Source of the DNA: Ferrimonas kyonanensis DSM 18153
Lineage (GTDB): Bacteria; Pseudomonadota; Gammaproteobacteria; Enterobacterales; Shewanellaceae
NCBI RefSeq assembly: GCF_000425405.1
Contig: NZ_AUDJ01000037.1
Coordinates: 1 to 51,407, forward strand
Length of the DNA stretch: 51,407 nt
Reading direction: 5' to 3'
In this document: one piece after another, positions 95 to 51,092 of the stretch
Layout of the letters: each line of letters opens with the position of its first letter
Position numbering within the stretch: the first letter of the stretch is position 1
Position numbers and translations under genes: made by a program
Notes under the pieces: model-generated
Told to the model about the DNA's origin: nothing
Seen by the model: the letters and a program-made list of their open reading frames with translations, nothing else
Database searches by the model: none

Positions 95-612
95 AAAGTC
101 TTGCAGTTGCAGGGGCGTCCATATACGTCTTTGATTTTGACCGTAACCCAACAAAAGCCACTGGGCCCATCGCGTTCGCAAGGGCGACGGTGCGATCAGG
201 AAGATTTTGCAGTTAACTTGGGCTTTAGAGATTGCGACAGAGTGGGGCCGATCGTTACCTCCGCAGGTTAATCACTCCTCCGTCGTGCCCGCGCACGCGG
301 GTACCCTGCGTCTTTGATTTTGACCGTAACCCAACACAAGCCGCTGGGCCCTCGCGTTCGCAAGGGCGACACGGTAGGGGTGTTGTGTAACGCATATTGT
401 TGGGCTCGCTACAGCGTTCGGTGCTAACTGTCACCAAAACACCTTCAAACATCCTCCGTCGTGCCCGCTTTTGATTTTGACTGTCGTGCCCGCGCACGCG
501 GGTACCCAGCGTCTTTGCTCTTTACTTTGCAAAAGCCACTGGCCCCTCGCGTTCGCAAGGGCGACGGGGTAGAGGGTATAGCCCACCGCGTTCGCAAGGA
601 CGACGATGCTGA
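95..612. repeat. Palindromic repeat cluster 1 (REP/REPIN-like)
   Basis: Intergenic stretch made of the window's palindromic repeat family. A-type copies (GTGCCCGCG-NN-CGCGGGTAC) lie near 284-305 and 484-505. C-type copies in reverse orientation (gggccctcgcg..cgcaagggcgac) lie near 160-183, 345-370 and 540-567, and a degenerate C copy near 588-604. The spacer 'tctttgattttgaccgtaaccc' recurs, and it also recurs at 4.4-6.3 kb. The A copy at 452-463 is truncated and followed by a second A copy. Frames open through here translate repeat DNA and are not genes. Bases 1-94 hold no gene that I can support. Confidence 0.85.
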
Positions 613-631
613 TGGAATGGAAGGAGTGAGG

Positions 632-934
632 TTAGGCCTTAAAGTCGATTTTCTGGTGGATGTTCTGCCACTGTTCGGGGAATTTGCCTTCCAGCATGTA
701 GGCGTAGGCGATGAGTTCCGCAATGACCAGATACAGGGCCGGGGGAATCGCTTCGCCAATCTCCAGCTTGGACAACACCTCGGCCAACTGCTTGTCCTCG
801 TGAACCAGGATGCCGGCTTCGATGGCAGCCTGTTCAATCTCATAGGCCAGATCGCCGGCACCGCTGGCCACCACTTTGGGCGCCTGCTTTTGATCGTACT
901 GTAGGGCAACGGCTTTCTTCTGCTTGCTGGTCAT
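632..934 (-). CDS. Stand-alone FlhB C-terminal-domain-like protein (EscU/YscU/HrcU family)
   Basis: A 100-aa soluble protein matching only the cytoplasmic tail of the flagellar/type III export switch FlhB. The family pattern 'ALxYDxxxAPKVVAxGxxxLA' is visible at residues 9-30, followed by 'LEIGEAIPPALYxVIAELIAYAY' near 55-78. The N-terminal membrane domain is absent, as is the autocleaving NPTH tetrapeptide, so the protein resembles the released C-terminal fragment of FlhB. Its ATG overlaps the TGA of the upstream fliK-like gene (ATGA), implying translational coupling. Short FlhB-like paralogues of this kind are known next to fliK in several bacteria. A role in export substrate switching is inferred. 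No terminator was seen downstream; repeat cluster 1 follows. Confidence 0.82.
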   Translation of the reverse strand: MTSKQKKAVALQYDQKQAPKVVASGAGDLAYEIEQAAIEAGILVHEDKQLAEVLSKLEIGEAIPPALYLVIAELIAYAYMLEGKFPEQWQNIHQKIDFKA

Positions 935-2202
935 CGTCCCATGGCTCCATAGGTCATGCGTTTGGCGGGTTGAGCGATCGAGTCCGGCACTTCACCAACC
1001 TGACAGCGTGGCACCGTGGTTTGCAGGCCATGGTCCTGGAATCGATGCACCAGAGTGGCTACCTGCTCATCGACTCGGTGGGCCAATGTTCGGCTGTCGG
1101 TAACCAGCGACATCTGCAGGGTGTCATCCTGATAGCGAGCACGTACTAACAGGTTGCCGAGGCTGAGCTCAAAGCGTAAGGTCAGCAGCCAGAACTCGTT
1201 GTCACCGGCCTCGGGATAACGTGCCAGGCCCAGTTGAAGCTCTCGCTGAACCCGTTCCTGCTCGTAGGGAAAGGCGTAGTAAAGAATCTGGTTGTCCCCA
1301 TCCAGTTGGCTCTGACGCTGAAACTCGGTCATCTGTTTAAACAGATCGGCGATGCCGGCGGCGGTGGTTGCTTTGGTGGACTCACTCAAGGCGGCCAGAG
1401 AGCTCGAGTCGGACGCCGGTCGGCCTTTACGCGCCTGCAGGTGGAACCACAGCGCCAACAGAGTGCCCATCGGTGTGGCGCTGCTGGCGGCCGGCAGGTT
1501 GCCCAGGGCGGTAAACAGCCCTTTTAGTAGCGCCGGAGAGGCGTACTGTGCCAGTGATGGCATCAGGGTCTTCTCTCCACCTGTGTCACTGCCAAGGCGC
1601 TGAGCCAGCACCGGTAACAGCGCTTTGAGTTCGGGTTGCTGCCGCAGCAATTCCAACAGGCTGCCACCAGAGGTGGGAGGCTTGTGACCACCGATAACAG
1701 CATCGTTGGCCTGAGGCGTGGTAGGTGACAGCAGCTTTAGGGTAAAGGGCTCTCCGGCTCGAAACAGCGTTAGCTTACGTTGCCCTTGCTGGGTCTCAAA
1801 TTTGCCGACCAAAGGCCCTGCTAACGACGCGGGCAAGCCGTCCATTAACATCTTTCCGCTGGATCGCAACAACAGTTGTCCCTGCTGATTAATCATCAAA
1901 TCAATGGGTTTTGATGTATTAAATAGGTTATTTGCTACATTCTTTAACAATGTGGGATTTGTTATCGTATGCGCGAGTGATAAAGTACGGCCCTGATAGT
2001 TTTGCCGGTCCACCCGTTTGAGCAGCAGCAGTGCGCTCGCGGGAAGTTGAGGGGCCGGTTCCATGGCCAGCCTTTGTCCCGAAACAGTGATATTCAGTTG
2101 ACCTGAACTGTGGGATTGGGTCGTAGCCCACTGAAAGGGTTGCGACTGACCGCCGGTCGCCGTGGCAGGCGAACCAACGGGAGAAGTGGGCATTATGGCC
2201 AT
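931..2202 (-). CDS. fliK: Flagellar hook-length control protein FliK-like
   Basis: A 423-aa protein, Gln/Ser/Thr-rich at the N terminus and without a signal peptide or membrane segment. The last ~130 residues look like the FliK C-terminal (Flg_hook) domain: 'YAFPYEQERVQREL', then 'LRFELSLGNLLVRARYQDD' and 'LxMSLVTDSRTLAHRV'. FliK is a secreted ruler that stops hook growth by contacting the FlhB C domain. Finding it translationally coupled to an FlhB-C-like gene supports the call. The ATG at 2202 has GGAG about 12 nt upstream; a second in-frame ATG at 2193 is possible. It is divergent from mlaA, with about 100 bp between them. The N-terminal part is poorly conserved in this family, so the call rests on the C terminus and the neighbour. 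Confidence 0.72.
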   Translation of the reverse strand: MAIMPTSPVGSPATATGGQSQPFQWATTQSHSSGQLNITVSGQRLAMEPAPQLPASALLLLKRVDRQNYQGRTLSLAHTITNPTLLKNVANNLFNTSKPIDLMINQQGQLLLRSSGKMLMDGLPASLAGPLVGKFETQQGQRKLTLFRAGEPFTLKLLSPTTPQANDAVIGGHKPPTSGGSLLELLRQQPELKALLPVLAQRLGSDTGGEKTLMPSLAQYASPALLKGLFTALGNLPAASSATPMGTLLALWFHLQARKGRPASDSSSLAALSESTKATTAAGIADLFKQMTEFQRQSQLDGDNQILYYAFPYEQERVQRELQLGLARYPEAGDNEFWLLTLRFELSLGNLLVRARYQDDTLQMSLVTDSRTLAHRVDEQVATLVHRFQDHGLQTTVPRCQVGEVPDSIAQPAKRMTYGAMGR

Positions 2203-2305
2203 GTACGACTAAACTCCGTAAAGGATTCAATAAGATCCCGAGCGCATTGTAACCAATAAGTGGTTCTCAAGTTTTTTTACTTTGCCTCCTTTAGGATATC
2301 GACGA

Positions 2306-3091
2306 TTGAACAAGTTTCTTAAATCGGGTTTGCCCTTATCTGCTGTTGCCAGCATGTTGTGGCTAGCGATGGCCCCTCAGGTCGTGCTGGCCGAAGAGGC
2401 CGCGCCTGAGATTCAAGAAAGCGACTACCATGATCCCCGTGATCCATGGGAACCCTTTAACCGGGCAATGTGGGACTTCAACTACAACGTTCTCGACAAG
2501 TACCTGTTCCGTCCGGCGGTGTATCTGTACATCGATTATGTGCCTTCGGGCGCACAATTGGGAGTGGAAAACTTCCTCAAGAACTTTGATGAACCCTACA
2601 GTGCGGTAAACAACCTGCTGCAGGGCAAAGGCAAATGGGCCGCCAATGCGGCTGGTCGGTTTGTTATTAACACCACCCTGGGAATTGGTGGCGTGTTTGA
2701 CGTGGCCGGCAATATGGGGCTGGAACGTAAGCAAGATGAGTTCGGCGAAGTATTGGGTTACTGGGGGGTTGCCGATGGCCCCTACATCATGCTGCCGGTA
2801 TTTGGCCCCACCACGGTACGGGACGAAGTCGGTGACTTCGTGGATAAGCTTTATTTTCCTTACGCCAATTTTGCGTTGTGGCAGACGGCAGCCCATTGGG
2901 CGTTGGATGGACTGTCTACTCGAGCCAGGTTGGTTGATCAGGAGTCGATACTGGATAACTCTCTGGATCCTTATGTATTTGTAAAAGAGGGTTACTACCA
3001 GTACATTGCATACAACCTATATGATGGCAATCCGCCCATCCAGGAAGAAGACGACGACCTGCTGGAGGAGTACCTCGACGAGATCGAGTAG
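2306..3091 (+). CDS. mlaA: MlaA/VacJ family outer-membrane phospholipid-removal protein
   Basis: MlaA works at the outer membrane with a porin and the MlaC/MlaFEDB system to remove mislocalised phospholipid from the outer leaflet. Family landmarks are clear: 'DPWEPFNRAMWDFNYNVLDKYLFRP' early in the mature protein (quoted in two parts: DPWEPFNR, MWDFNYNVLDKY), 'VNNLLQGK', 'GRFVINTTLGIGGVFDVA', 'DEFGEVLGYWGV', 'GPYIMLPVFGPTTVRD'. A TTG at 2306 is the best start: AGGA at 2293-2296 sits 9 nt upstream, and translation begins directly with a signal peptide. A longer TTG start at 2282 has no good RBS. The signal peptide ends 'VVLA-EE' with no lipobox cysteine, unlike the lipoprotein of E. coli. The C terminus is very acidic (EEDDDLLEEYLDEIE). 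A terminator follows. Confidence 0.93.
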   Translation: MNKFLKSGLPLSAVASMLWLAMAPQVVLAEEAAPEIQESDYHDPRDPWEPFNRAMWDFNYNVLDKYLFRPAVYLYIDYVPSGAQLGVENFLKNFDEPYSAVNNLLQGKGKWAANAAGRFVINTTLGIGGVFDVAGNMGLERKQDEFGEVLGYWGVADGPYIMLPVFGPTTVRDEVGDFVDKLYFPYANFALWQTAAHWALDGLSTRARLVDQESILDNSLDPYVFVKEGYYQYIAYNLYDGNPPIQEEDDDLLEEYLDEIE

Positions 3092-3146
3092 ACAGTAGAG
3101 GAGCGTTGACCACGGTGCACGGTGGTCGGGGGGAGCCATTGCAAGT

Positions 3147-3176
3147 TGGCAGACGAGTTGGTCTGCCACTTTTTAT
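3147..3176 (+). terminator. Rho-independent terminator after mlaA
   Basis: An 8-bp perfect stem, TGGCAGAC (3147-3154) and GTCTGCCA (3161-3168), has a 6-nt loop and is followed by CTTTTTATT. It lies 56 bp after the mlaA stop and before the next gene's RBS, so the two plus-strand genes are probably separate transcripts. An additional palindrome (gaccacggtgcacggtggtc) lies just upstream at 3108-3127. Confidence 0.8.
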
Positions 3177-3224
3177 TGCACAATGGACAGAGCACTCGCG
3201 ATGAAGTGCTCGAGGATAACAATA

Positions 3225-4301
3225 ATGAATCTTAGCGCTAAAACGGCCCTGTTGATCGAGGGTAAGGCACACTGCTCTCACAGAATCGTCAGTTTTTTAA
3301 AGCCCTCTGGGCTGCAGGTGGACTGCGCAGAAACCGCGGGTCAGGCATTGGGAAAAATCCTTGGGCGACGACCAGACATTATTCTGCTGGACCTTCACCT
3401 ACCGGGAATGGATGGCGCGGGCATGCTTCGGACCATGAGCGAAATTGATAACCCGCCACCGGTGATCATCATCTCCACTAAGAATGTCCTTAATGCCCAG
3501 GCGCGCAGCCGCTACCCCTTTGTTATGGCCGCCTTCGATAAGCCCATCACCGATCTCAACGCACTGCAGCACGCCATTGAGCATTCTCTTAGTCCGGGGA
3601 TGGAGCGGCGGCGGATGCAGCCAAGAGAGGTGTCTGAGGTCGATTTAACGGCATTTTCTGATCCGGGTGTGGCAGTACTGTCTCAGCAATTGATCTTTCA
3701 GGCGGCCAAGGTGGCCCGTTCGGGTTGTCTAGCTCGCTACAGCGTTCTTAGTAAAGCGATGATCTCACAGTGGTTTGTAAGCCATGTTGAGCTCAATGAA
3801 CATAGCATTGGCGGCTTTATTGCTTATATGCCGGCCGATGACCACCAGGCGGCTTTTGTCAGCCTGATGCTGCAAACTTACCTTAATAGCCTGAGACGGC
3901 GACGTAAGCGTGATCAGCAACTGGTAATGAAGTCCGAGTTTATCCTGAACAGCCTGGCCAAAGAGGTGGCAGACTCCGGGTTGGATGTGCCGGTACAGTT
4001 GGGGTTCTTTACCTACGACAGTCAAAGTCGCGAGATCTCACTGGCAATCGTTGGCAGTGAGATTAAGGCCTACTTGCGCCAGGGTGACCATCTCAACCCC
4101 ATGATGCTGCGTTCCGGTAGATCTTTGGTCGATAAACCCCTGGTTTGCGCTTCAATCACTCGAAATCTTGAACCTGACACTCAATTGGTACTGTTTGGCG
4201 GCGACAAGGCCCTAAAGCCAAAACTGCTCAATGACGAGTTTTCCGGCTTTAATGAAACCCTGCATCAGGGCGCCTACATTCAGGTCGAATCCATCAGCTA
4301 A
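3225..4301 (+). CDS. Response regulator with degenerate PP2C-like output domain (RssB-like architecture)
   Basis: A 358-aa protein. The N-terminal receiver (about residues 5-120) has the phospho-acceptor motif 'IILLDLHLPGMDG', the switch Ser/Thr in 'VIIIST' and the conserved Lys in 'AFDKPI'. The C-terminal ~200 residues look like a SpoIIE/PP2C fold ('DDHQAAFVSLMLQTYLN', then 'LNSLAKEV', 'LGFFTYDSQSREISLAIVG') but without the usual metal-binding Asp-Gly pattern, as in the sigma-S adaptor RssB. Output is therefore probably protein-protein binding rather than phosphatase activity or DNA binding. Start chosen at ATG 3225: GAGG at 3212-3215 is 9 nt upstream. The 14 extra residues of the longer frame have no RBS. 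No cognate kinase is adjacent. Whether it is a true RssB or an HsbR/anti-anti-sigma type regulator cannot be decided here. Confidence 0.78.
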   Translation: MNLSAKTALLIEGKAHCSHRIVSFLKPSGLQVDCAETAGQALGKILGRRPDIILLDLHLPGMDGAGMLRTMSEIDNPPPVIIISTKNVLNAQARSRYPFVMAAFDKPITDLNALQHAIEHSLSPGMERRRMQPREVSEVDLTAFSDPGVAVLSQQLIFQAAKVARSGCLARYSVLSKAMISQWFVSHVELNEHSIGGFIAYMPADDHQAAFVSLMLQTYLNSLRRRRKRDQQLVMKSEFILNSLAKEVADSGLDVPVQLGFFTYDSQSREISLAIVGSEIKAYLRQGDHLNPMMLRSGRSLVDKPLVCASITRNLEPDTQLVLFGGDKALKPKLLNDEFSGFNETLHQGAYIQVESIS

Positions 4302-4309
4302 TTTAACCT

Positions 4310-6365
4310 GCCCATTCGCCAAGGCCCCAGCACCCTCGCTCTTGCGCATGCGAGGGCCAGCGATACCCCCTCTCTCGTCGCCCTTGCGCACGCGAGGGCC
4401 CAGCGATTTTGGTTTTGCCCGTAGAAACAGCCACTGGCTACCGCCGTACGCGGGCATGACGGAAGGTCGTAGTTTACGCTTTGCGAACCCGATACAGATG
4501 GCGACCACTAATCCTGCCGCCCCACAACTCATCAACCGTGTCACCCTTGCGCACGCGAGGGCCCAGCGACTTTGGTTTTGACCGTGGAAACAGCCACAGG
4601 GTACCCGCCTGCGCAGGCACGACGGAAGGTCGTAGTTTACGCTGGCGAAGCTGATAAAGATGGCGATCACTAATCCTGCCGCCCCACAACTCTCCAACCG
4701 TGTCGCCCTTGCGAACGCGAGGGCCCAGCGATACACCTCTCTCGTCGCCCTTGCGCACGCGAGGGCCCAGCGACTTTGATTTTGACCGTAGAAACAGCCA
4801 CTGGGTACCCGCATACGCGGGCACGACGGAAGGTCGTAGTTTACGCTGGCGAAGCTGATAAAGATGGCGATCACTAATCCTGCCGCCCCACAACTCTCCA
4901 ACCGTGTCGCCCTTGCGAACGCGAGGGCCCAGCGATACCCCTCTCTCGTCGCCCTTGCGAACGCGAGGGCCCAGCGATACCCCTCTCTCGTCGCCCTTGC
5001 GAACGCGAGGGCCCAGTGACTTTGGTTTTGACCGTAGAAACAGCCACAAGATACCCGCCTGCGCGGGCACGACGGAGGGGGCTTGGGGTACGCGGGTAAC
5101 GATCAGCACCGAGCTCTATCGATAACTCAATAACGACTCAGTTAGCACCAACCCTCCCCATTCGCACCGTCGCCCTTGCGCACGCGAGGGCCCAGCGACT
5201 TTGATTTTTAACGTAGAAACAGCCTCTGGGTACCCGCGTACGCGGGCATGACGGAAGGTCGTAGTTTACGCTTTGCGAACCCGATACAGATGGCGACCAC
5301 TAATCCTTCCGCCCCACAACTCATCAACCGTGTCGCCCTCCAGTGACTTTGATTTTGACTGTAGAAACAGCCACTGGGTACCCGCTTACGCCGGCACGAC
5401 ATAGGGATGTTTGGGATACGTGGGTAACGATCAGCACCGATCTTTTTTGAAACCGCAGAGCTACTCGGTTTCCACCATTCTAACCAACTTGCACCGTCGC
5501 CCTTGCGCACGCGAGGGCCCAGTGACTTTGATTTTGACTGTAGAAACAGCCACTGGATACCCGCGTCCGCGGGCATGACAGTGGGATGTTTGGGATACGT
5601 GGGTAACGATCAGCACTGAGCTCTACCGATAACTCAATAACGACTCAGTTAGCACCAACCCTCCCCACTCGCACCGTCGCCCTTGCGCACGCGAGGGCCC
5701 AGTGACTTTGGTTTTGACCGTGGAAACAGCCACTGGGTACCCAAGTCCGCGGGCATGACGGAAGGTCGTAGTTTACGCTTTGCGAACCCGATACAGATGG
5801 CGACCACTAATCCTGCCGCCCCACAACACATCAACCGTGTCGCCCTTGTGAACGCGAGGGGCCAGTGACTTTGATTTTGACCGTAGAAACAGCCACTGGA
5901 TTCTCGCCTACGCAAGAATGACAAAAGGGCAAAGCCACTGGGTACCCGCTTACGCGGGCACGACGGAGGGATGTTTGGGATACGAGGGTAACGGTCAGCA
6001 CTGAGCTCTACCGATAACTCAATAACGACTCAGCTAGCACCAACCCTCCCCATTCGCACCGTCGCCCTTGCGCACGCGAGGGCCCAGCGACTTTGATTTT
6101 GACCGCAGAAACAGCCACTGGATTCTCGCCTACGCAAGAATGACAAAAGGGCAAAGCCACTGGGTACCCGCTTACGCGGGCACGACGGAGGGATGTTTGA
6201 GGTACGCGGGTAACGAGCAGCATCGAGCTCTGCCGATACCCCAAAAACGACTCAGTTAGCACCAACCCTCCCCACTCGCACCGTCGCCCTTGCGAACGCG
6301 AGGGCCCAGCGACTTTGGTTTTGACTGTGGAAACAGCCACTGGATACCCGCGTACGCGAGCACGA
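4310..6365. repeat. Palindromic repeat cluster 2 (2 kb REPIN-like mosaic)
   Basis: A gene-free interval of about 2.1 kb. The basic unit is a C-type palindrome (GTCGCCCTTGCGNACGCGAGGGCCCAGCG), about 30 nt of 'actttgattttgaccgtagaaaca', then an inverted A-type palindrome (CACTGGGTACCCGC..GCGGGCACGAC). By eye I count roughly a dozen C-type and about ten A-type copies. Between units lie two kinds of spacer module of about 80-90 nt. One contains 'ttgcgaacccgatacagatggc' (near 4470, 4640, 4845, 5260, 5765). The other contains 'cgagctctaccgataactca' (near 5105, 5620, 6005 and variants at 5430 and 6225). C copies at 4908-4995 are tandem at 44-nt spacing. B-type palindromes occur near 5910 and 6125. 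Apparent ORFs here, such as 4474-5109 and 4212-4901 on the minus strand, are translations of repeats. Confidence 0.9.
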
Positions 6366-6405
6366 CGATAAAGAAAAAAACATCCCCCCCAACCAACGCT
6401 CACAA

Positions 6406-6433
6406 AAAAGCCCGGCTCAGTGGCCGGGCTTTT
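6406..6433 (-). terminator. Rho-independent terminator of the POT transporter gene
   Basis: Stem AAAAGCCCGGC (6406-6416) with GCCGGGCTTTT (6423-6433) and a 6-nt loop. Read on the minus strand it is followed by a run of T. It lies 18 bp beyond the transporter stop codon. Confidence 0.9.
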
Positions 6434-6450
6434 GCAAACAAAACTAAGAG

Positions 6451-7917: not shown

Positions 7918-8417
7918 TGAGTATGTAACCTTCTTTGCATTTTAAACAGAAAAAGCCCGTTTCCTTTGCGGATTATCAGGCGCCCCACCAGTGTAATGAT
8001 TGTTCAAGAAGCGGAGGGATGCACTTGTATACACTTTCTTAACCCGTTAAGTCAATGTGGAAGCCTTATTTGCTGCGGCTTTGAAGGGCGATAGTTGCTG
8101 AATTTGAGAGCGTTTGCAGGGACAAATAACTGGTGAATTTGATTTCAGCTTGCTGAAGATGTTGAATCTGGTGAGGAAGCCAGAAACCGTTGTCTGCGTG
8201 ATGGGAGTGTGTCACGAAATGTCATTCAGCAATGTTGGCATATCGATATGGCTATAAACACTTAATTGAGCATGCTCTCACTTCCGCTTTTTTTGCTGGG
8301 ATTGCACCGGTAAGCGTGGCAGAATGGTTTGGCTGGGCTAGTTCTTTCTGGCCCCTTCCCGAAGCGACAAGGAATGCCCTTCGGACAATGATGCACCTGA
8401 GTAGACAAGGACCGTTT
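7918..8417. other. Non-coding interval between POT gene and first rfaH-like gene
   Basis: A 500-bp interval separating divergent genes. It must contain both promoters, but I cannot pick convincing -35/-10 boxes. An in-frame upstream extension of the rfaH-like gene runs from 8232; it is not homologous in character to RfaH and has no RBS, so it is treated as non-coding. No palindromic repeats of the A/B/C family occur here. Confidence 0.5.
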
Positions 8418-9759: not shown

Positions 9760-9790
9760 ACCGCTTTATTTTAAGCTGTGCCCTAGGGCA

Positions 9791-31494: not shown

Positions 31495-32040
31495 AAAGAC
31501 ACTGGGTACCCGCGTACGCGGGCACGACAGTCAAGGTCCAAGGCCTAAGGTCAAAAGCCAAAGACGCTGGGTACCCGCGTTCGCGGGCACGACAGTCAAA
31601 GGCAAAGGCCTAAGGTCAAAAGCCAAAGACACTGGGTACCCGCGTACGCGGGCACGACGGAAGGTTGGTTGGATAGCTGAGGTTACCGTGTAGTGTTTGC
31701 GTGACCTGAGGCTAAGGTTAAAGGCAAAGACGCTGGATTCTTGCGTTCGCGCGAATGACGAGGGGCGGGAAGACGCCGGGTACCCGCGTGTGCGGGTACG
31801 GCGGTTAAGGGCAAAGGCCCAAGGTCAAAAGCTAAAGACACTGGGTACCCGCGTTCGCGGGCACGACGGTGGGTTGGTTGGAGTTCTCTGGTTTCCGGGT
31901 AGTGTTTGCGTTACCCGGGGCTGAGGTTCAAGGCAAAGACGCTTGATTCTCGCGTTCGCAAGAATGACGAAAGTCTGGAAGATCCTGGGTACTCGCGTTC
32001 GCAACAATGACGAAGTGTGGGTACGGCGGTCAAAAGCTAA
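31495..32040. repeat. Palindromic repeat cluster 3
   Basis: Gene-free. A-type palindromes, here in reverse orientation (ctgggtacccgcg..cgcgggcacgac), recur near 31502-31530, 31567-31597, 31632-31660, 31778-31802 and 31840-31868. B-type copies (ctggattctt/ctcgcg..cgcgaatgac) lie near 31733-31760 and 31940-31970. Three successive A copies are separated by near-identical 35-nt spacers (cluster periodicity about 65 nt). C-type copies are not evident in this cluster. The remaining ~150 bp to glmM show nothing clear. Confidence 0.85.
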
Positions 32041-38547: not shown

Positions 38548-39240
38548 AATGTCGTGCCCGCGCACGCGGGTACCCAGCGTCTTTTACCCTTTGTCATTCT
38601 TGCGCAGGCGAGAATCCAGCGTCTTTTTTTATCCTCTAAATCAAAGCCACTGGCCCCTCGCGTTCGCAAGGGCGACGGTGCTAGTTGGATGGTTTTGCAG
38701 TTAATCTGCTCTACCGTGGCTACGGCAGAGCTCAGCACCGGTCGTTCCCACCTAACCTTCAACTATCCCTCCGTCGTGCCCGCGAAAGCGGGTACCTAGT
38801 GTCTTTTGCCCTTTGTCATTCTTGCGCAGGCGAGAATCCAGCGCCTTATTGGTTGTAAAGCCACTGGGCCCTCGCGTTCGCAAGGGCGACGGTGCTAGTT
38901 GGATGGCTTTGCGGTCAACCTGCTCTACCGTGGCTACGGCAGAGCTCGGCATTGGTGGTTACCACTGAACCTCCAACCATCCTTCCGTCTTTCTCGCTAC
39001 CTCAGTACGTTAATCATTACTCCGTCGTACCCGCGAACGCGGGTAACCAGTGTCTTTTTACCCTCTCAACCAAAGTCACTGGACCCTCGCGTTCGCAAGG
39101 GCGACGGGGTGGAGTATGTCGTGCCCGCGAATGCGGGTACCTAGTGTCTTTTGCCCTTTGTCATTCTTGCGCAGGCGAGAATCCAGCGCCTTATTGGTTG
39201 TAAAGCCACTGGGCCCTCGCATTCGCAAGGGCGACGGTGA
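38548..39240. repeat. Palindromic repeat cluster 4
   Basis: Gene-free. A-type copies in forward orientation are near 38551-38580, 38771-38800, 39024-39053 and 39117-39146. B-type copies are near 38594-38620, 38814-38840 and 39159-39185. Reverse C-type copies close the units near 38648-38677, 38863-38892, 39075-39105 and 39205-39235. The order A-B-C(reverse) is repeated. The spacer module 'ctctaccgtggctacggcag' with 'agctc' lies near 38708 and 38922. Confidence 0.9.
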
Positions 39241-39315: not shown

Positions 39316-40431
39316 CTACAGATTGGTGCTGTTGTCTTTTTGAGCGACCTGAGGCGTACTTGGGTTAGCTCGTTGGCGAACAATGGACATACAGTTGTCG
39401 ATAAAATTACTGATCTGGCTCTGGGGAATATTGGGTGCTCCGAGGTTTTTATTGCCGCCGTCAAATGCATCAAATGACGCAATAACGCTGCTGGTGCAAG
39501 CAACCAGCACTTCATCCAGTAGTACACTCTCTGCCAGATCCTTTACGACCAGTGCCACTTGATCAGAAGAAGAGGTGCCCGCCGTGGTGGACTGTTGTCC
39601 TAGTGCCTGGGCGTAGGTATTGGTGGCCATCGACATGGCGCCATTGAGACTATCAAAGACCTTTTGGTGATCCTGGTAATTGACGGTTTGCACGGTCAGG
39701 TTTGATTTGGCCGTGGCCAGCTTCGTTTTTTGAGCGCTGTATTTGTCGCAGTTCGCTTTGGTGTCATTGGTGGGGGTGGTACATACTGTATCAGCATCGC
39801 CTGTAATGGCCTTGGCTATTTCATCCAGTGCGGCTTGCTCGGTTGCAACCGTAGTCTCTGCGGCCGCTTTGTCCTTAAGGGCTTGGTCTTTATTGGCTTT
39901 TGCATCGGCAATTTTATCGCTGAGATTGAGAGTGGCGTTGGCTGCAATGGCGATTTGAGAGCGAGGCTGGCTGGTGGTCAGTTGCTCAATAGCGATGAGG
40001 GCCACCATTGAGCGTTGATATTTGCTGAGCATGGCAAAATACTGAGACTCGTCGATGGCACCCGATGCGTAGGCTTCACAGAGCCGAAAACCGGCATCCC
40101 TTAGCAGCTGAATGGATTGCGAGCGAATGCCGATAGTGGCGCCATTCTCGCTGTTGACTGATTTAAAGGCGGCAGTAACTTCCTCAACCACATCAACATT
40201 GGCTTCGACGGCCGAGCTGTATACCGAGAACACATCGGGGCTGGGCTCGGTGCAGGTAATGGATTGGCCACTGCTAGACTGGCCTGAGATAAGAAAGCGT
40301 TGCTTGGCATCGACACTGATAACCTGCTGGGTGTCGCTGAGTGTGTCAACTTCGTGGATGGTTGAGCTGCATCCGGTTATGCCGGTTAGGGTAAGGGTGC
40401 CAAGTAGCAATGATTGGTTCAGTATGCGCAT
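39316..40431 (-). CDS. Orphan lipoprotein with coiled-coil segment
   Basis: A 371-aa protein I do not recognise. It has a lipoprotein signal peptide with lipobox 'ITGC' (Cys21), so it is anchored in the inner or outer membrane. An Ala/Lys/Glu/Asp-rich coiled-coil region spans about residues 165-215 ('KIADAKANKDQALKDKAAAE'), and there are several Cys residues ('TVCTTPTNDTKANCDKY'). The C terminus is Ser/Pro/Gln-rich. AGGAG lies 7 nt before the ATG. It stands alone between repeat clusters 4 and 5. No function is assigned. Confidence 0.75.
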   Translation of the reverse strand: MRILNQSLLLGTLTLTGITGCSSTIHEVDTLSDTQQVISVDAKQRFLISGQSSSGQSITCTEPSPDVFSVYSSAVEANVDVVEEVTAAFKSVNSENGATIGIRSQSIQLLRDAGFRLCEAYASGAIDESQYFAMLSKYQRSMVALIAIEQLTTSQPRSQIAIAANATLNLSDKIADAKANKDQALKDKAAAETTVATEQAALDEIAKAITGDADTVCTTPTNDTKANCDKYSAQKTKLATAKSNLTVQTVNYQDHQKVFDSLNGAMSMATNTYAQALGQQSTTAGTSSSDQVALVVKDLAESVLLDEVLVACTSSVIASFDAFDGGNKNLGAPNIPQSQISNFIDNCMSIVRQRANPSTPQVAQKDNSTNL

Positions 40432-40596: not shown

Positions 40597-41395
40597 CCCT
40601 CCGTCGTGCCCGCGAACGCGGGTACCCAGCATCTTTCGCTCTTCGTCATTCTTGCGAACGCGAGAATCCAGCGTCTTTCGCCCCTCGTAATTCTTGCGAA
40701 CGCGAGAATCTAGCGTCTTACGCCCTTTGTCATTCTTGCGAACGCGAGAATCCAGCGTCTGTTCTTGTTAAGAAAACCCAAAGTCACTGGGCCCTCGCGT
40801 TCGCAAGGGCGACGGTGCGAATGGGATGGGCTTGTGGTCAATCATCGCTCTACAGTGGCCAATAGAGAGCGGTAATGCGGCAGCCAATCGTACTTTAACC
40901 ATCCCTCCGTCGTGCCCGCGCACGCGGGTATCCAGCGTCTTTCGCCCTTCGTCATTCTTGCGGATGCGAGAATCCAGCGTCTTTCGCCCTTTGTCATTCT
41001 TGCGAACGCGAGAATCCAGCGTCTTACGCCCTTTGTCATTCTTGCGAACGCGAGAATCCAGCGTCTGTTCTTGTTAAGAAAACCCAAAGCCACTGGGCCC
41101 TCGCGTTCGCAAGGGCGACACGAGCGAGGTGGGGTGGGTTAAGTTGAACTGTGGCCGCCAGAAGGGCTGGTGCCATACTAATTACCCTCCGTCTCTCTCG
41201 TTACCTCAGTACGTTAATCACCACTCCGTCGTGCCCGCGCAGGCGGGTATCCAGTGTCTTTCGCCTGCGAACGCGAGAATCCAGCGTCTGTTCTTGTTAA
41301 GAAAACCCAAAGTCACTGTGCCCTCGCGTTCGCAAGGGCGACGGGGTGGAGTGTGTCGTGTCCGCGCATGCGGGTATCCAGTGTCTTTCGCTCTT
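40597..41395. repeat. Palindromic repeat cluster 5 (with tandem B-type copies)
   Basis: Gene-free. Two long units have the order A, B, B, B, C(reverse). In the first the A copy is at ~40602-40632 and B copies are near 40647, 40686 and 40727 (ATTCTTGCGAACGCGAGAAT and variants), with C reverse near 40786-40815. In the second the A copy is at ~40909-40938, B copies near 40952, 40993 and 41034, and C reverse near 41093-41118. A third unit starts near 41227 and has a truncated B copy near 41262. Tandem B copies are spaced about 41 nt with similar spacers. The last A copy (41356-41386) ends within 20 bp of the stop codon of the next gene. Confidence 0.9.
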
Positions 41396-42807: not shown

Positions 42808-42986
42808 GGATAAGTCCTTTTACCCTGAAGGCCTAGTTTAACCCTAGCAGCGAATTTTAAGGATGCGGCCGGGAGCGGCATTTTTTCTTATTCAGGATGA
42901 AAGAAAGATCACATAAAGGGCGAATTCTCGCTGCAGTTCACGGATAATATGGCTTGTTTACAATCGGTTATCAGCAGGCAGAGTCC

Positions 42987-44777: not shown

Positions 44778-44819
44778 GTATCGCTCTTACCTTCGCTGTA
44801 CTCTGCTTTGGGTTTAGAT

Positions 44820-45565
44820 CGTCGTGCTCGCGCTCGCGGGTACTCAGTATCTTGCCTTTCTGCTCGTAGTGTCTGTTTTTGATTTTGATTGTCGTGCCCG
44901 CGAACGCGGGTACCCAGCGTCTTTTGCTCTTCGTCATTGTTGCGAATGCGACAATCCAGTGTTTGTTATTGGTAAGAAACCCCAAAGCCACTGGGCCCTC
45001 GCGTTCGCAAGGGCGACACGGTTGGGGTTGGTGAGTGTGGCGGCATCGGTTGCCGCAGGGGAGTGCAGCTCTCACCGAACAATTAATAAAACCTCCGTCG
45101 TGCCCGCGAACGCGGGTACCCAGCGTTTTTTTGCTCTTTGTCATTGTTGCGAATGCGAGAATCCAGTGTTTGTTCTTGGTAAGAAACCCCTAAGCCACTG
45201 GGCCCTCGCGTTCGCAAGGGCGACGGTGCTTGTTGGATGGGTTTGCGGTAAGTCCGCTCTACCGTGGCTACGGCAGAGCCCGGCATTGGTGGTTACCACT
45301 CAACGTCCAACTATCCCTCAGTCGTTTCTGTTACCACTCAATGTCCAACCATCCTTCCGTCGTGCCCGCGAACGCGGGTACCCAGCGCCTTTTGCTCTTC
45401 GTCATTGTTGCGAGCGCGAGAATCCAGTGTTTGTCCTTGGTAAGAAACCCCTAAGCCACTGGGCCCTCGCGTTCGCAAGGGCGACAGTGTGGAGGATATG
45501 AGCCCTCGGGTTCGAAGGGCGACGGGGTGAAGGATATGGACCCTCGAGTTCGCAAGGACGACGCT
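44820..45565. repeat. Palindromic repeat cluster 6
   Basis: Gene-free. Forward A copies lie near 44820, 44891-44920, 45097-45126 and 45358-45387. B-like copies with TTGTTGCGAATGCGA(C/G)AAT are near 44935, 45140 and 45402. Reverse C copies are near 44990-45018, 45198-45227, 45460-45487 and degenerate ones near 45500-45565. The spacer module 'gtgtggcggcatcggttgcc' near 45033 recurs in cluster 7. The module with 'ctctaccgtggctacggcag' near 45257 recurs in clusters 4, 8 and 9. Confidence 0.9.
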
Positions 45566-45586
45566 GTGAACGGGGTGGTGGTTAGG

Positions 45587-46774: not shown

Positions 46775-46823
46775 GAGAATCTCCGCGTGTAACGCTTAAG
46801 TTGTGGACGGCGATTATTCCGGC

Positions 46824-46840
46824 TTATACTTTTGCGATAA
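46824..46840. promoter_or_regulatory. Candidate LysR-type binding site
   Basis: TTAT-N9-ATAA at 46824-46840, an interrupted dyad with the T-N11-A core spacing of LysR boxes, in the 103-bp gap between the divergent MFS and lysR genes. It was found by eye only. Confidence 0.35.
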
Positions 46841-46877
46841 ACGACTCCTTTATGAAATTACTTTTGTTGAAAATGCA

Positions 46878-47759
46878 ATGAAGTCCCGTTCAGATGATCT
46901 GCAATTGCTGTTGGCGGTGGTCGACAGTGGAGGTTTCTCTGCCGCCGCTGATGCCTTGGGCATTCAAGTGGCCCGTGTGTCCAGAGCGGTGAGCCGACTC
47001 GAGCAGCAGTTGGGCGTTACGCTGCTTAATCGAACCACTCGGCGGGTGGAACTGACTGAAGAGGGGCGCCAATTTGTGTATGAAGTGCGGCAAGGAATGG
47101 CGCAGTTGCTGCACGCCGAGGCTCAGCTTCAGAGTCGGCTGGATACCCCGTCTGGCCGATTAAGAGTCGATGCTGCCAGTCCTTTTATTCAGCATCAACT
47201 GGTGCCGCTGATAGCGGAGTTTCAGCAACAGTATCCACAGATAGAGCTGGAGCTGACTTCCAATGAAGGTTATGTGGACCTGCTGGAGAAGCGCTGTGAT
47301 GTAGCGATTCGCATTGGACCCTTGACGGACTCGAGTCTGCATGCCCGACAGTTAGGGCGCAGTGCGCTGCATTTGGTAGCCTCGCCGGATTATCTGGCGC
47401 AGTGCGGAATCCCTGAAAACGTTGAGCAGTTATTGAGCCATCGGCTGTTGGGTTTTGTTGGTACTCGTGCGCTTAATGTGTGGCCGCTGCCGGAGGTGGG
47501 AGAGATCCGTCCGGCCATCAGCAGCAGTAATGGCGAGGTGCTTCGACAGTTGGTGTTGATGGGCAACGGAATAGCCTGTTTGTCGGCATTTATGATCCAA
47601 GATGATTTGGCCAAAGGGCGTCTGGTTAAGCTGCTGGAGTTGCAGACTCTGCCGCATACTGATCGAGAGTTGGTCAATGCGGTTTACTATCGCACTACGG
47701 CCATTCCCAGTCGAATTCGTGCCTTTTTGGACTTCATTGAACCGCGGCTAACTTTGTAG
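46878..47759 (+). CDS. LysR-family transcriptional regulator
   Basis: A 293-aa protein. The N-terminal helix-turn-helix is 'DLQLLLAVVDSGGFSAAADA', then 'GIQVARVSRAVSRLEQQLGV', then 'LLNRTTRRVELTEEG'. The effector domain starts near residue 90 with 'SGRLRVDAASPFIQHQLVPL'. It most likely controls the divergent MFS transporter and itself. Start at ATG 46878 matches the usual LysR N terminus; the frame from 46803 has 25 extra residues with no family match. The stop is followed within 25 bp by a truncated A-type repeat. Confidence 0.93.
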   Translation: MKSRSDDLQLLLAVVDSGGFSAAADALGIQVARVSRAVSRLEQQLGVTLLNRTTRRVELTEEGRQFVYEVRQGMAQLLHAEAQLQSRLDTPSGRLRVDAASPFIQHQLVPLIAEFQQQYPQIELELTSNEGYVDLLEKRCDVAIRIGPLTDSSLHARQLGRSALHLVASPDYLAQCGIPENVEQLLSHRLLGFVGTRALNVWPLPEVGEIRPAISSSNGEVLRQLVLMGNGIACLSAFMIQDDLAKGRLVKLLELQTLPHTDRELVNAVYYRTTAIPSRIRAFLDFIEPRLTL

Positions 47760-47771
47760 AGCCCTTTTAGC

Positions 47772-48175
47772 TGTACCGGTGTACGCGGGTACCCAGTGCC
47801 TTGTGCCCTTCGTCATTCTTGCGAAAGCGAGAATCCAGAGTCTGTTATTGGTAATAAACTTCAAAGTCACTGGGCCCTCGCGTTCGCAAGGGCGACACGG
47901 TTGGGGTTGGTGAGTGTGGCGGCACCGGTTGCCGCAGGGGAGTGCAGCTCTCACCGAGCAATCAATAAAACCTCCGTCGTGCCCGCGTACGCGGGTACCC
48001 AGCGTCTTTTTTACATTCAACCACAAAGCCACTGGGCTCTCGCGTTCGCAAGGGCGACACGGTTGGGGTTGGTGAGTGTGGCGGCACCGGTTGCCGCAGG
48101 GGGAGTGCAGCTCTCACCGAACAATCAATAAAACCTCCGTCGTGCCCGCGTACGCGGGTACCCAGCGTCTTTCGT
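47772..48175. repeat. Palindromic repeat cluster 7
   Basis: Gene-free. A truncated A copy (gtacgcgggtaccca) is at 47780-47794, a B copy near 47812-47836, and reverse C copies near 47868-47897 and 48028-48057. Full A copies are at 47975-48004 and 48139-48168. Two nearly identical ~95-nt spacer modules (47899-47974 and 48060-48138, containing 'ggtgagtgtggcggcaccgg') show a local duplication of about 160 bp. Confidence 0.9.
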
Positions 48176-48253
48176 TTCTCTGGCTCAAGGGAAAAAGGGG
48201 CACTCTGGCGGCGAGGGAAGTCGGTAAGTAATGCCCTCAGGGCGCAATGCGGG

Positions 48254-48412
48254 TTATAACTTAACCCAGATGTAGATCATGAAGCCGATCATCATCAGCA
48301 CAATGGGAATGGCGAGGATGGGGAATAGCGCCAGCAACAGCCACATCGCCAGGGCGATCCAGTCACCGTAGCGATCAAAAAAACTAGGTCGTTCTTTGTT
48401 TGGGTGGGTCAT
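48254..48412 (-). CDS. Small single-helix or hairpin membrane protein (52 aa)
   Basis: A short ORF. The polar start 'MTHPNKERPSFFDRYGDW' is followed by a continuous hydrophobic stretch to the end ('LAMWLLLALFPILAIPIVLM' then 'MIGFMIYIWVKL'). The hydrophobic part is long enough for one long helix or a helical hairpin with a Pro-containing bend. It sits downstream of, and in the same direction as, the DUF2750 gene, but a terminator lies between them. I do not recognise the family. The amino-acid composition and clean stop and start make it credible as a real small protein. Confidence 0.6.
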   Translation of the reverse strand: MTHPNKERPSFFDRYGDWIALAMWLLLALFPILAIPIVLMMIGFMIYIWVKL

Positions 48413-48414
48413 GG

Positions 48415-48445
48415 AAAAAGCAAAGAGCCCATTGCTGGGCTCTTT
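48415..48445 (-). terminator. Rho-independent terminator after the DUF2750 gene
   Basis: Stem AAAGAGCCCA (48422-48431) / TGGGCTCTTT (48436-48445) with a 4-nt loop; on the minus strand it is followed by GCTTTTTCC. It lies 6 bp beyond the DUF2750 stop and just before the small membrane-protein ATG. Confidence 0.88.
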
Positions 48446-48451
48446 GGAAAC

Positions 48452-48823
48452 CTATTCGCCTTGCAGCTCAGTGGCCAGCTCTTTGGCTGACATCACTTCG
48501 CCTTCACCGGCACGGGTCGGTACCAAGGCAACGTCGTAGCCATCGTTTGACAGGCCGGGAACCCACTTGTCGAGGAAGTCATCCAGTGGAATGCCCATGG
48601 GCTGACAGCCTGCGTATTCTTCGGTGGCCCAGCTTTCCGCCAGGTCTTGATGGGGCCACAGCAGCAAACACTGTTCTTCGCCGGTATCCACTAACACGCA
48701 GCCCTGCTCATTGGCCAGGGTCCACAGGGTTTTATGCTCTGCGACCTGCTCCAGGAACTGAGCAAAACGCTCTTTACTGGTTTGTCGGTAGAAATTATCG
48801 ATCTGTTCTTGGGTCAGGGACAT
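48452..48823 (-). CDS. DUF2750-family protein
   Basis: A 123-aa acidic cytosolic protein of the DUF2750 type. Pattern elements are 'YRQTSKERFAQFLEQVAEHK', 'LWTLANEQGCVLVDTGEE', 'LLLWPHQDLAESWATEEYAG' and 'IPLDDFLDKWVPGLSNDG'. The function of the family is not known to me. It has its own terminator and is divergent from the nitronate monooxygenase gene. Confidence 0.8.
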   Translation of the reverse strand: MSLTQEQIDNFYRQTSKERFAQFLEQVAEHKTLWTLANEQGCVLVDTGEEQCLLLWPHQDLAESWATEEYAGCQPMGIPLDDFLDKWVPGLSNDGYDVALVPTRAGEGEVMSAKELATELQGE

Positions 48824-48977
48824 GGTTTACTTCTCAAGTGGTGAGTTACCGGCGGAGTATAACAGCAGCCTGACGCCATAACCAAAGCGTACGAATTTAT
48901 AAGCAGTTTTGCGCAAAACTTGCTCAGCAGGACGACCGTGGTAACAATACGGTTAGAACCATATCAGGAGAACCATT

Positions 48978-49970
48978 ATGTCACTGCCAACATTGCTGCA
49001 GGACACCTTACAATTGCCTGCAGTTGCAGCGCCAATGTTTCTGGCGTCGGGTCCGGAACTGGTGATTGAAACCTGTAAGGGCGGGGTCGTCGGCAGTTTC
49101 CCCGCGTTGAATCAGCGCACCAGCGAAGGCTTTGAGCAGTGGCTGGAAGAGATTAATCTCGCGCTGGTGGAGGCCAAAAAGCAACCCGGAGCATTGGTGG
49201 CGCCTTATGCAGTCAACTTGATTGTGCATGGCTCTAACCCTAGGTTGAAGGACGACTTGGCTTTATGCGTGAAGCATAAGGTACCGATCATCATCACTTC
49301 TCTTGGAGCGGTATCGGAGTTAGTGGAGCAGGTTCACAGCTACGGCGGGGTTGTTTTCCACGATGTCACCAATGTACGCCATGCCAAAAAGGCAGTGGCT
49401 GCCGGTGTTGATGGTCTCATTGCCGTAGCCGCTGGAGCTGGCGGACACGCCGGAACCACCAGTCCGTTTGCGTTAGTGGCGGAAATACGACAGTTCTTCC
49501 AGGGAACGGTGCTGCTCGCTGGCTGTATCTCCTGTGGTCAGGATATTGCCGCAGCCCAGCAGATGGGGGCGGATCTGGCTTACATGGGAACCCGGTTTAT
49601 CAACACTCAGGAAGCGATGTCGGCCGAGGGCCACAAAAAGATGATTCAGCAATCGATGTCGGCTGACATTCTCTATACCCCAAACGTGTCTGGGGTAGCG
49701 GCGAACTTCCTCAAGGACAGCATTCGCAATGCCGGTTACGATCCGGAAAACCTGGCGCCGAAAACCGAGATCGACTTTGGTCAGGAGTTAACTCCCGGAG
49801 AGAATCAGGGGGATAAGCAGAAGGGGGCCTGGGCGGAGATTTGGTCTGCCGGCCAAGGGGTGGGCAGTATTAAAGACATTCCGACTGTGGCTAATCTGCT
49901 GCAGCAGTTGAAGCTGGAGTATCAGCAAGCCATTGCCGCCCACCACGATATGGTGCAGCGCTATATGTAG
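48978..49970 (+). CDS. Nitronate monooxygenase (2-nitropropane dioxygenase family)
   Basis: A 330-aa FMN-dependent TIM-barrel enzyme that oxidises alkyl nitronates such as propionate-3-nitronate. 'LPAVAAPMFLASGPELVIE' at the start, 'GLIAVAAGAGGHAGTTSPFA' with the likely catalytic His in GGHAG, and 'GADLAYMGTRFINTQEAM' for FMN phosphate binding are family blocks. AGGAG lies 8 nt before the ATG. A degenerate half A-type repeat begins three bases after the stop codon. Confidence 0.93.
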   Translation: MSLPTLLQDTLQLPAVAAPMFLASGPELVIETCKGGVVGSFPALNQRTSEGFEQWLEEINLALVEAKKQPGALVAPYAVNLIVHGSNPRLKDDLALCVKHKVPIIITSLGAVSELVEQVHSYGGVVFHDVTNVRHAKKAVAAGVDGLIAVAAGAGGHAGTTSPFALVAEIRQFFQGTVLLAGCISCGQDIAAAQQMGADLAYMGTRFINTQEAMSAEGHKKMIQQSMSADILYTPNVSGVAANFLKDSIRNAGYDPENLAPKTEIDFGQELTPGENQGDKQKGAWAEIWSAGQGVGSIKDIPTVANLLQQLKLEYQQAIAAHHDMVQRYM

Positions 49971-49971
49971 C

Positions 49972-50565
49972 CATTCGCGGGCACCTAGCGTTTTACACGC
50001 TATGTGTTCGCTGCTTCGTGCCCGCAAACGTGGGCACCCTGTGCCTTTCGTTTTATGCCCGTTGTGTCTGCTTTTGATTTTGATGGTCGTGCCCGCGCAC
50101 GCGGGTACCCAGCGTCTTTAATCGCAATTAAACCCAAAGCCACTGGGCCCTCGCGTTCGCAAGGGCGACGGTGCTAATGGGGTGGTTTTTGCGGTAAACC
50201 CGCTCTACCGGGGCGACGGCAGAGCTCGGCATTGGTGATTACCACTGAACCTCCAACCAACCATCCTTCCGCCTCTCTCGCTACCTCAGTACGTTAATCA
50301 TTACTCCGTCGTGCCCGCGCACGCGGGCACCCAGCGTCTTTTGCTCTTGGTCATTCTTGCGAACGCGAGAATCCAGAGTCTGTTATTGGTAAGAAACCCC
50401 AAAGCCACTGGGCCCTCGCGTGCGCAAGGGCGACGGTGCTGATCGGATGGGATTGCGGTAAATCCGCTCTACCGTGGCTACGGCAGAGCTCGGCATTGGT
50501 GGTTACCACTCAACGTCCAACCATCCTTCCGTCGTGCCCGCGCACGCGGGTACCCAGTGTCTCTT
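49972..50565. repeat. Palindromic repeat cluster 8
   Basis: Gene-free. A half A copy is fused to the 3' end of the preceding gene (49974-49990). A degenerate A copy is near 50009-50037, and full A copies near 50085-50115, 50306-50335 and 50530-50560. A B copy is near 50350-50375. Reverse C copies are near 50140-50169 and 50405-50434. Modules with 'gctctaccgtggctacggca' are near 50467, and a variant (ctctaccggggcgacggcag) near 50202. Confidence 0.9.
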
Positions 50566-50585
50566 GCTTTTTGGCAAGTAAGTAC

Positions 50586-50873
50586 TTACATCAGTGTTTC
50601 CCACAGGTCTTGCCAATAAGGGTTTTCCTGCTCAATCAGTTGAATCTTCCATTCTCGCTTCCAGTGCTTTAACTGTTTCTCTCGAGTTATGGCCTGATAC
50701 ATCGATTGATGTGTTTCGAAATACACCAGTTGGGTTAACTGATGAGAGTGAGAAAACCCATCGATAAACTGGTTCTTGTGCTCCCAAATTCGCTTCATAA
50801 GATTTGAGGTCACGCCAATATACAGGGTGCCGTTTCGGTCATTGGTGATAATGTAGACGCAGGGCTGTTTCAT
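50586..50873 (-). CDS. GIY-YIG nuclease-domain protein (UPF0213/YhbQ-like)
   Basis: A 95-aa single-domain protein. The GIY-YIG core is 'CVYIITNDRNGTLYIGVTSN' with the catalytic Arg in 'LMKRIWEHK', then 'LVYFETHQSMYQAITREKQL' with the conserved Glu, and 'KHWKREWKIQLIE'. Stand-alone copies of this family are common, often near repeats, and their role is unclear. GGGAG lies 8 nt before the ATG. Repeat clusters lie on both sides. Confidence 0.92.
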   Translation of the reverse strand: MKQPCVYIITNDRNGTLYIGVTSNLMKRIWEHKNQFIDGFSHSHQLTQLVYFETHQSMYQAITREKQLKHWKREWKIQLIEQENPYWQDLWETLM

Positions 50874-50934
50874 CCTGTTTGCTCCCTTCCTTAGGAGTTC
50901 GTAATTATAGGAAAGGGATCTTGGGGGGGCTTAA

Positions 50935-51092
50935 AGCCGCTGGACCCTCGCGTTCGCAAGGGCGACGGTGCTAATGGGGTGGTTTTTGCGGTAAATCCGC
51001 TCTACCGTGGCTACGACCAGAGCTCGGCATTGGTGATTATCACTCAAGGTCCAACCATCTCTCCGTCGTGCCCGCGCACGCGGGTACCCAGT
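50935..51092. repeat. Palindromic repeat cluster 9
   Basis: A reverse C copy (50943-50967), the 'gctctaccgtggctacg' module near 50998, and a forward A copy (51064-51092) whose 3' flank is cut at 'acccag' by the IS110-family element. Confidence 0.88.

Follow-up and report, generated by a model that had tools for sequence, protein, structure and literature searches.

A small GIY-YIG nuclease gene bracketed by CGTC-type palindromes, a candidate mobiliser of repetitive extragenic palindromes in Ferrimonas and other Pseudomonadota

Short palindromes that recur in inverted pairs raise the question of which enzyme, if any, spreads them. The locus considered here is a 51,407-base stretch (hereafter the window), contig C24 of the 40-contig, 4.93-Mb draft genome of a Ferrimonas strain (the own genome, G000). 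A first-pass annotation had described three related palindromes in it, types A, B and C, and had likened their pairing to that of REPINs, which are inverted pairs of repetitive extragenic palindromes (REPs). It missed what is the more important feature, a gene for a 95-amino-acid (aa) GIY-YIG nuclease that lies inside one of the pairs. The arrays are a new family of CGTC REPs with an order like that of bacterial interspersed mosaic elements (BIMEs), and we consider it probable that this small nuclease, with which the palindromes are associated across Pseudomonadota, is the enzyme that mobilises them.

A nuclease gene inside a palindrome pair

Palindromes were located with a strict pattern, GTC-N6-GCGNNCGC-N6-CCAG, in which we refer to the leading GTC as the tag. 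Type A reads GTC-GTGCCCGCG-NA-CGCGGGTAC-CCAG, type B begins GTC-ATTCTTGCG and type C begins GTC-GCCCTTGCG. The three types proved real and as first described: the window holds 56 strict sites against 0 in 30 first-order shuffles, and the own genome holds 187 (93 forward, 94 reverse; 1+1 for a control with the pattern reversed). Allowing up to 5 mismatches, 128 A, 45 B and 120 C were counted in the window and 29 further own-genome stretches, which together cover all 187 strict sites.

The nuclease gene occupies 50586..50873 on the minus strand and replaces the ~30-nt linker of an A-C' pair, C' being a C on the strand opposite to A. It is bounded by a type A palindrome on the left (50531..50557, plus strand) and a type C palindrome on the right (50940..50966, minus strand), both with their tags outward. 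The open reading frame (ORF) matches PF01541 at E 1.9e-14. The catalytic residues of GIY-YIG enzymes are Y, Y, R and E, and among 154 proteins residues Y7, Y18, R28, H32, E65 and N84 are conserved at 97-100%; together with the PF01541 match, this places the protein in the GIY-YIG superfamily. No accessory DNA-binding domain was found in its 95 aa. Homing-endonuclease models match it weakly and over the GIY-YIG part only, defence-system models match weakly as well (E 0.001-0.002), and no solved structure matches in sequence at E<=0.01. An AlphaFold model of the single sequence, whose mean predicted local distance difference test score (pLDDT) was 57, was kept out of fold searches. Readings of the unit as an integron, a CRISPR or a group I intron were dropped, on anatomy only.

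A PF01541 search of 14 Ferrimonas genomes returned relatives of the window nuclease in G012 (71% identity), G008 (69%) and G001 (61%), besides UvrC and further GIY-YIG types. In G008 the gene again lies within a tags-outward pair, and the distance from the start of A to the start of C' is nearly the same as in the window (410 and 409). G012 and G001 retain remnants of this layout: the G012 gene lies between a palindrome and an IS110-family gene, and in G001, which has no strict REP, an apparent degenerate palindrome was read by eye downstream of the gene. None of the other 26 Ferrimonas GIY-YIG loci examined has palindromes on both sides.

The REP-associated tyrosine transposase (RAYT), which mobilises REPs elsewhere, had been reported as missing from the window, and this extends to the whole own assembly, where the RAYT family (PF01797, Y1) gave 0 matches while 5 of 14 control genomes were matched. 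The system is therefore not a member of the REPIN/RAYT class, and RAYT was rejected as the mobiliser. It is also very improbable that a RAYT-type Y1 transposase formerly mobilised these REPs and was since lost: some PF01797 match does occur in 6 of the 14 Ferrimonas genomes, but among the five REP-rich ones (strict counts 187, 160, 128, 60 and 34) it is missing from four, namely G000, G005, G009 and the single-contig G012, and in the fifth, G008, a 146-aa frame gives a single match. Di Nocera, De Gregorio and Rocco (2013, PMC3733652) likewise found CGTC REPs flanking no tyrosine transposase gene.

Nuclease and palindromes across Pseudomonadota

Searching a 398-genome sample of Pseudomonadota with the nuclease protein gave matches in 130 genomes (E<=0.001), and 149 of the strongest matches listed, the window's own excluded, were analysed for flanking palindromes (GTC, an 8-bp stem with at least 7 pairs, a loop of 3-7 nt, CCA). 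A CGTC palindrome was observed within 250 nt of 63 of the 149 relatives, and on both sides of 46; among these 46, the nearest two palindromes point outward in 26 and are otherwise arranged in 20. The layout of the window unit (50531-50966), a nuclease bracketed by palindromes with tags outward as in a REPtron, was found at locus L079 and at 41 of the 149 phylum loci. Palindromes are also concentrated and oriented around the gene: within 0-100 nt there are 47 upstream (+37/-10) and 67 downstream (-46/+21), and beyond 300 nt there are 0-5 per 100-nt bin. An earlier, narrower scan, which missed 9-bp stems, had placed a palindrome no further than 700 nt away, on one side or both, at 45 of 85 loci.

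An inverted repeat across the gene, sought irrespective of tag, is present within 200 nt at 102 of 159 loci and at 400-600 nt at 0 of 156; this distal control falls mostly inside neighbouring genes, and annotated neighbour genes were added as a control. On three named replicons, such neighbours have an inverted repeat in 1 of 85 cases; 9 of the 85 have a CGTC palindrome on either side and 2 have one on both, whereas the nuclease genes there have CGTC palindromes on both sides in 3 of 3. Loci without a strict palindrome pass the tag-free test in 51 of 88 cases, many with larger CGTC palindromes. In a plasmid collection, 33 records (some of them whole chromosomes) matched the nuclease. Among the 13 examined, eight have a palindrome within 250 nt (Neisseria gonorrhoeae, Azospirillum lipoferum, Sinorhizobium meliloti, Aeromonas caviae, Photobacterium, Rhizobium sp. 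CIAT894, Neorhizobium and Shinella), with both sides occupied in 6 and the gene bracketed in 5. Loci in Novosphingobium and Sphingobium were missed by the strict definition and have tagged hairpins on both sides; no tagged hairpins were seen at the nuclease loci of Rhizobium tumorigenes, Planktothrix and Spirosoma.

This distance profile and the control genes oppose an incidental nuclease neighbourhood, as assumed in a rival reading of ordinary REP or BIME arrays that grew by tandem duplication and recombination and serve as terminators, gyrase sites or mRNA stabilisers. Such an origin would account for tandem arrays with recurring linkers, and PMC3733652 mentions E. coli REPs as gyrase targets. 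Host uses of this kind may remain, but as an explanation of the locus we regard this reading as improbable.

Gene and palindromes also co-occur between genomes. Taking E<=1e-20 for the nuclease and at least 5 REPs, 46 of the 398 genomes have both, 40 the gene only, 33 REPs only and 279 neither (odds ratio (OR) 9.7, p 3.6e-16), and all 16 threshold pairs gave an OR of 4.8-9.7 with p at most 4.8e-8, the genomes in these statistics being phylogenetically non-independent. At the level of families, whose codes were assigned by hand, the counts of 20/11/7/49 correspond to an OR of 12.7 (p 1.2e-6). The REP pattern used for the sample misses many stem types: it scores 2 in the own genome, where the strict Ferrimonas pattern scores 187. 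On a tree of the nuclease, REP loop class (4, 5 or 7) changes 11 times, compared with a mean of 23.8 and a minimum of 19 in 500 shuffles; the test scored 71 of 74 rows, and the tree, built on 93 columns, has poor resolution, with 42 of its 71 inner branches open. Palindrome class thus tends to follow the nuclease tree.

At one locus the gene and its palindromes are present or absent together. On plasmid p3 of A. lipoferum 4B, the nuclease gene sits in the sufB-sufC interval, flanked to left and right by a palindrome dimer; the scan of 36 kb passes five palindromes, and four of them are these. A. ramasamyi, A. oryzae and A. sp. B510, which are 95-96% identical to this locus over the matched parts, have a short sufB-sufC intergenic stretch with neither gene nor palindromes, and the locus spans 1415-1512 nt in all 11 other Azospirillum records listed, compared with 2001 in A. 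lipoferum. The simplest reading is that gene and palindromes were gained in A. lipoferum, and it is on this one joint presence and absence, a comparison between loci, that movement of the element is suggested. In Shinella, gene and palindromes are missing from the two relatives compared, where the differences also extend over longer stretches. Standalone Slx1-like GIY-YIG domains are described by Dunin-Horkawicz et al. (2006, PMC1564403), and the recent insertion of one of them in an HsdR gene would fit a mobile nuclease.

These data bear on the main rival explanation, in which the nuclease is a free-standing homing-type parasite that lands in REP pairs, like IS110-family elements, and the REPs spread by other means. 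That the Ferrimonas gene sits within an existing array in place of a linker is what such a parasite would produce; an IS110-family gene adjoins a REP in G012, so REPs may be targets of other elements, and 18 REP-rich genomes have no nuclease match. Landing in pre-existing pairs is at odds, however, with the joint absence of gene and palindromes at sufB-sufC, with the position of four of five A. lipoferum palindromes beside the gene and with the tendency of palindrome class to track the nuclease tree. Weakened in this way by the co-occurrence and tree data and by the Azospirillum locus, the parasite explanation seems to us unlikely, if still a serious contender.

Heterotypic pairs and array architecture

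The earlier claim that A pairs with C rather than with itself had been tied in advance to a count of A-C against homotypic pairs. For adjacent inverted palindromes at most 260 nt apart in the own genome, 151 of 151 pairs are heterotypic (A or B with C), compared with a mean of 74.3 and a maximum of 91 in 1000 label shuffles. Because the arrays are tandem, pairs are non-independent; counted by array, 34 of 36 clusters containing both classes are strand-locked, and the two exceptions are same-strand arrays on contig C29. Same-strand mixed arrays of A and C, with ~77-nt or 39-nt spacing, were seen at L052:1566-4058 (on C29) and at L013:1118-1534 (Ferrimonas sediminum). Same-strand neighbours are of one class in 66 of 71 cases. 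The unit order is A, an optional B, usually 41-43 nt further on the same strand, and C on the opposite strand, or A-[B]n-C'. The adjacent inverted pairs comprise 79 head-to-head and 72 tail-to-tail, so that head-to-head units are present and clustering is the rule. Head-to-head linkers are of 20-40 nt in 71 of 79 cases and typically begin YG[G/T]CTTT or YG[G/T]CTGT and finish AAAGNCR, so their ends can pair. The long linkers between units are mostly ~80, 96 or 113 nt, seven being 12 nt long, and among linkers of at least 60 nt, 52 of 65 match a linker at another own-genome locus examined.

The rule that partners must differ holds with different sequences in the Ferrimonas compared. Strict type C matches in a species-genome collection (from which the own genome was possibly excluded) fall in 21 stretches, all of F. 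sediminum, where 99 of 99 inverted pairs are heterotypic, a biased sample because loci were picked by their type C match. In the G012 stretches, where 49 of 49 inverted pairs are heterotypic, the stems are different ones and form three partner systems: ATGCCGGCG with TCCCTGGCG, ATTGTGGCG with TCCCCGGCG, and ACTCCGGCG with TTCCCGGCG or ATCCCGGCG. Inverted neighbours keep within one system, the single exception being ACTCCGGCG with a further type.

Stem differences had been proposed to preserve pairing, and they mostly do. Among the 41 distinct sequences of the 187 own-genome sites, free stem positions 1-6 are paired in 29, 41, 36, 37, 37 and 38; with the partner shifted by one, positions 2-6 pair in 6, 17, 14, 39 and 37. 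Position 1 is therefore frequently unpaired, and positions 5 and 6 do not discriminate, because runs of C/G still pair when shifted. In the G012 stretches, positions 1-6 are paired in 15, 26, 25, 26, 27 and 24 of 27. Both arms often change together (T-A and C-G at position 2, C-G and T-A at position 5), and position 6 is C-G or T-G in the own genome compared with G-C in G012. The wobbles noted earlier were confirmed among 193 distinct 27-mers from three genomes, where 53 of the 75 distinct A sequences have G-T at position 3 and 42 of the 45 distinct C sequences have T-G at position 6; that scan demanded at least 6 of 8 pairs, so its higher pairing figures are partly built in, and those from the 41 sequences are unconditioned.

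Folding energies were computed with DNA parameters under soft constraints. For native A-C units, the long duplex averages -19.2 kcal/mol and two hairpins -13.3 kcal/mol, the latter being understated since the CCAG/CTGG inner helix was also forbidden in that run; with forced hairpins the value is -16.5. When the same units are made homotypic in silico, the long duplex reaches ~-44 kcal/mol, and by pair type its means are -37 to -47 for homotypic and -16 to -24 for native pairs. Heterotypy thus takes ~25 kcal/mol off the long snap-back form. The earlier suggestion that a pair can fold as one long structure stands in so far as this form is possible, and is computed as the more stable one in 123 of 134 native units, but it is weak beside its homotypic counterpart. 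The preference for heterodimers is said in PMC3733652 to have "no obvious explanation", and its authors suggest that heterodimers may escape hairpin-removing enzymes; the lowered long-duplex energy agrees with that suggestion and adds numbers to it, not proof.

The nuclease unit belongs to an array at 50015..51091 (A, A-C', A-B-C', A-[GIY-YIG]-C', A). The largest array, at 4377..6366, reads on the minus strand as repeated A-[B]-C' with one C'C'C' and one C'C' run. Others lie at 162..565 (C'-A-C'-A-C'), 38551..39235 (A-B-C' twice, A-C', A-B-C'), 40603..41381 (A-BBB-C' twice, A-C', A), 44821..45562 (A, A-B-C' three times, a degenerate C') and 47770..48165 (A-B-C', A-C', A, with long linkers of 79-80 nt). 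An array of A and B only, all on the minus strand and flanked by polysaccharide genes, lies at 31502..32011. REP arrays lie no more than a few hundred bases from the ends of many own-genome contigs, the window included; assembly probably breaks there, and array sizes may be underestimated. No Rfam family was found in the window at gathering scores, and no tRNA or tmRNA.

Several neighbouring features were also observed. Window 51065-51345 (~280 nt) has matches at seven listed places in G012, several of them at REPs, and appears to resemble the end of an IS110-kind element; the IS110-family gene that adjoins REPs in G012 is at L073:10730-11935. A polysaccharide or capsule-type cluster at 9950-38495 (genes for an SLBB export protein, a glycosyltransferase, Wzi, a phosphomannomutase, a UDP-sugar dehydrogenase and a nucleotidyltransferase) has REP arrays on both flanks and one inside; an exopolysaccharide cluster in Thauera is described in PMC3733652 as similarly REP-flanked. 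The window matches same-genus genome G009 at 84-86% across kilobases. Between two arrays, at 39316-40431, lies a 371-aa ORF with no Pfam match at E<=1e-5; the corresponding stretch is ~1.7 kb in G009 and 2.6 kb in the window, which may reflect an insertion or a deletion.

A proposed mechanism and its relation to known systems

On the reading that we prefer, the A-C' pair would be the non-autonomous unit, and an A-C' pair enclosing the GIY-YIG gene its autonomous version. The nuclease, which its sequence context makes a good candidate for spreading the palindromes, would recognise CGTC palindromes as hairpins or cruciforms in the context of tag and stem and would nick at the tags. Repair from another copy, or replication from it, would then carry the pair to new sites, and the same copying would also expand and homogenise arrays. 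Heterotypic stems, strict in Ferrimonas, would keep two hairpins possible while weakening the long snap-back hairpin. The nuclease would thereby fill the role that the RAYT tyrosine transposase has for GTAG REPs with an unrelated enzyme, a parallel that would be functional and not by descent.

Several observations pull the other way. A strict CGTC palindrome within 250 nt is lacking at 86 of the 149 relatives, and the share with one falls with identity to the window protein, from 19 of 30 at 55% or more and 29 of 49 at 50-55% to 14 of 51 at 45-50% and only 1 of 19 below 45%. The REP-rich Ferrimonas G009 and G005 have no nuclease gene in their draft assemblies. In the 398-genome sample, 32 genomes with at least 5 REPs have no nuclease match at E<=1e-14. 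Of these, 14 gave weak or partial matches in a profile search (E<=1e-5), including a gene split over two frames between two matching palindromes in G124 and genes with a palindrome on one side in G272 and G185; the remaining 18, among them G050 (162 REPs) and G169, gave no match, and another mobiliser, gene loss or an assembly gap may account for these. Neither a target-site duplication nor an exact insertion edge was definable at the compared loci; in A. lipoferum, divergence of the intergenic DNA prevents the edges from being placed with single-base precision. Heterotypy is not general, since 18 of the 24 nearest outward pairs outside Ferrimonas are homotypic. That the long duplex stays the more stable computed fold in most native units also weighs against the role proposed for heterotypic stems.

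The palindromes themselves fit the CGTC superfamily, described in PMC3733652 as having a CGTC or TGTC tag, an 8-9-bp stem, a 4-5-nt loop and a CCA tail, with head-to-head dimers (tags outward) predominating and clusters rare. The Ferrimonas repeats share the tag (GTC, preceded mostly by C/T), eight stem positions that are mostly paired, a 4-nt loop, the tail (CCAG) and the head-to-head dimers. They differ in forming dense alternating tandem arrays of three types with recurring long linkers, in their association with a nuclease gene and in the start of the stem: AT is "almost invariably" found at the first two stem positions according to the same source, but A begins GT and C begins GC, and an AT start is confined to B and some other Ferrimonas types. 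Heterotypic head-to-head dimers are reported there for several CGTC families, some of them exclusively heterodimeric. The heterotypic alternating layout is thus already known, from BIMEs and from CGTC heterodimers, and of the interpretation first given, the REP-like, heterotypic, tags-outward arrangement is supported, although as logic it is not new.

REPINs and REPtrons with RAYT also combine inverted pairs of short palindromes with a nuclease gene that these palindromes bracket, but the Ferrimonas enzyme is GIY-YIG and not Y1/HUH, and its tag is GTC/CGTC and not GTAG. Alternating arrays of the GTAG superfamily likewise have two palindrome kinds in alternating orientation, in tandem and with conserved linkers; the Ferrimonas arrays differ from them in stems, linkers and tag. 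Homing endonucleases and standalone Slx1-like proteins share the GIY-YIG catalytic core (PMC1564403), and homing enzymes spread their own gene; the window nuclease does not group with homing endonucleases, having no detected accessory domain and being REP-bounded and outside any intron or intein. The word "palindrome" does not occur in the main text of PMC1564403. Among the matches listed from open-licence PubMed Central literature, none links such a nuclease to REPs, which does not prove absence from print, and no literature on Ferrimonas REPs was found there.

Taken more broadly, we lean, if only slightly, towards a mobile class widespread in Pseudomonadota, in which a bracketed standalone GIY-YIG element and its gene-less derivatives would parallel RAYT and REPINs on an unrelated enzyme, each nuclease lineage with its own palindrome class and with obligate heterotypy in Ferrimonas. 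In 2013, no dedicated transposase was said to exist for CGTC REPs, Neisseria dRS3 among them (PMC3733652). A conserved and often bracketed nuclease makes the question of their mobiliser directly testable in vitro, and the Ferrimonas partner rule offers a clean system for the question of why heterodimers are preferred.

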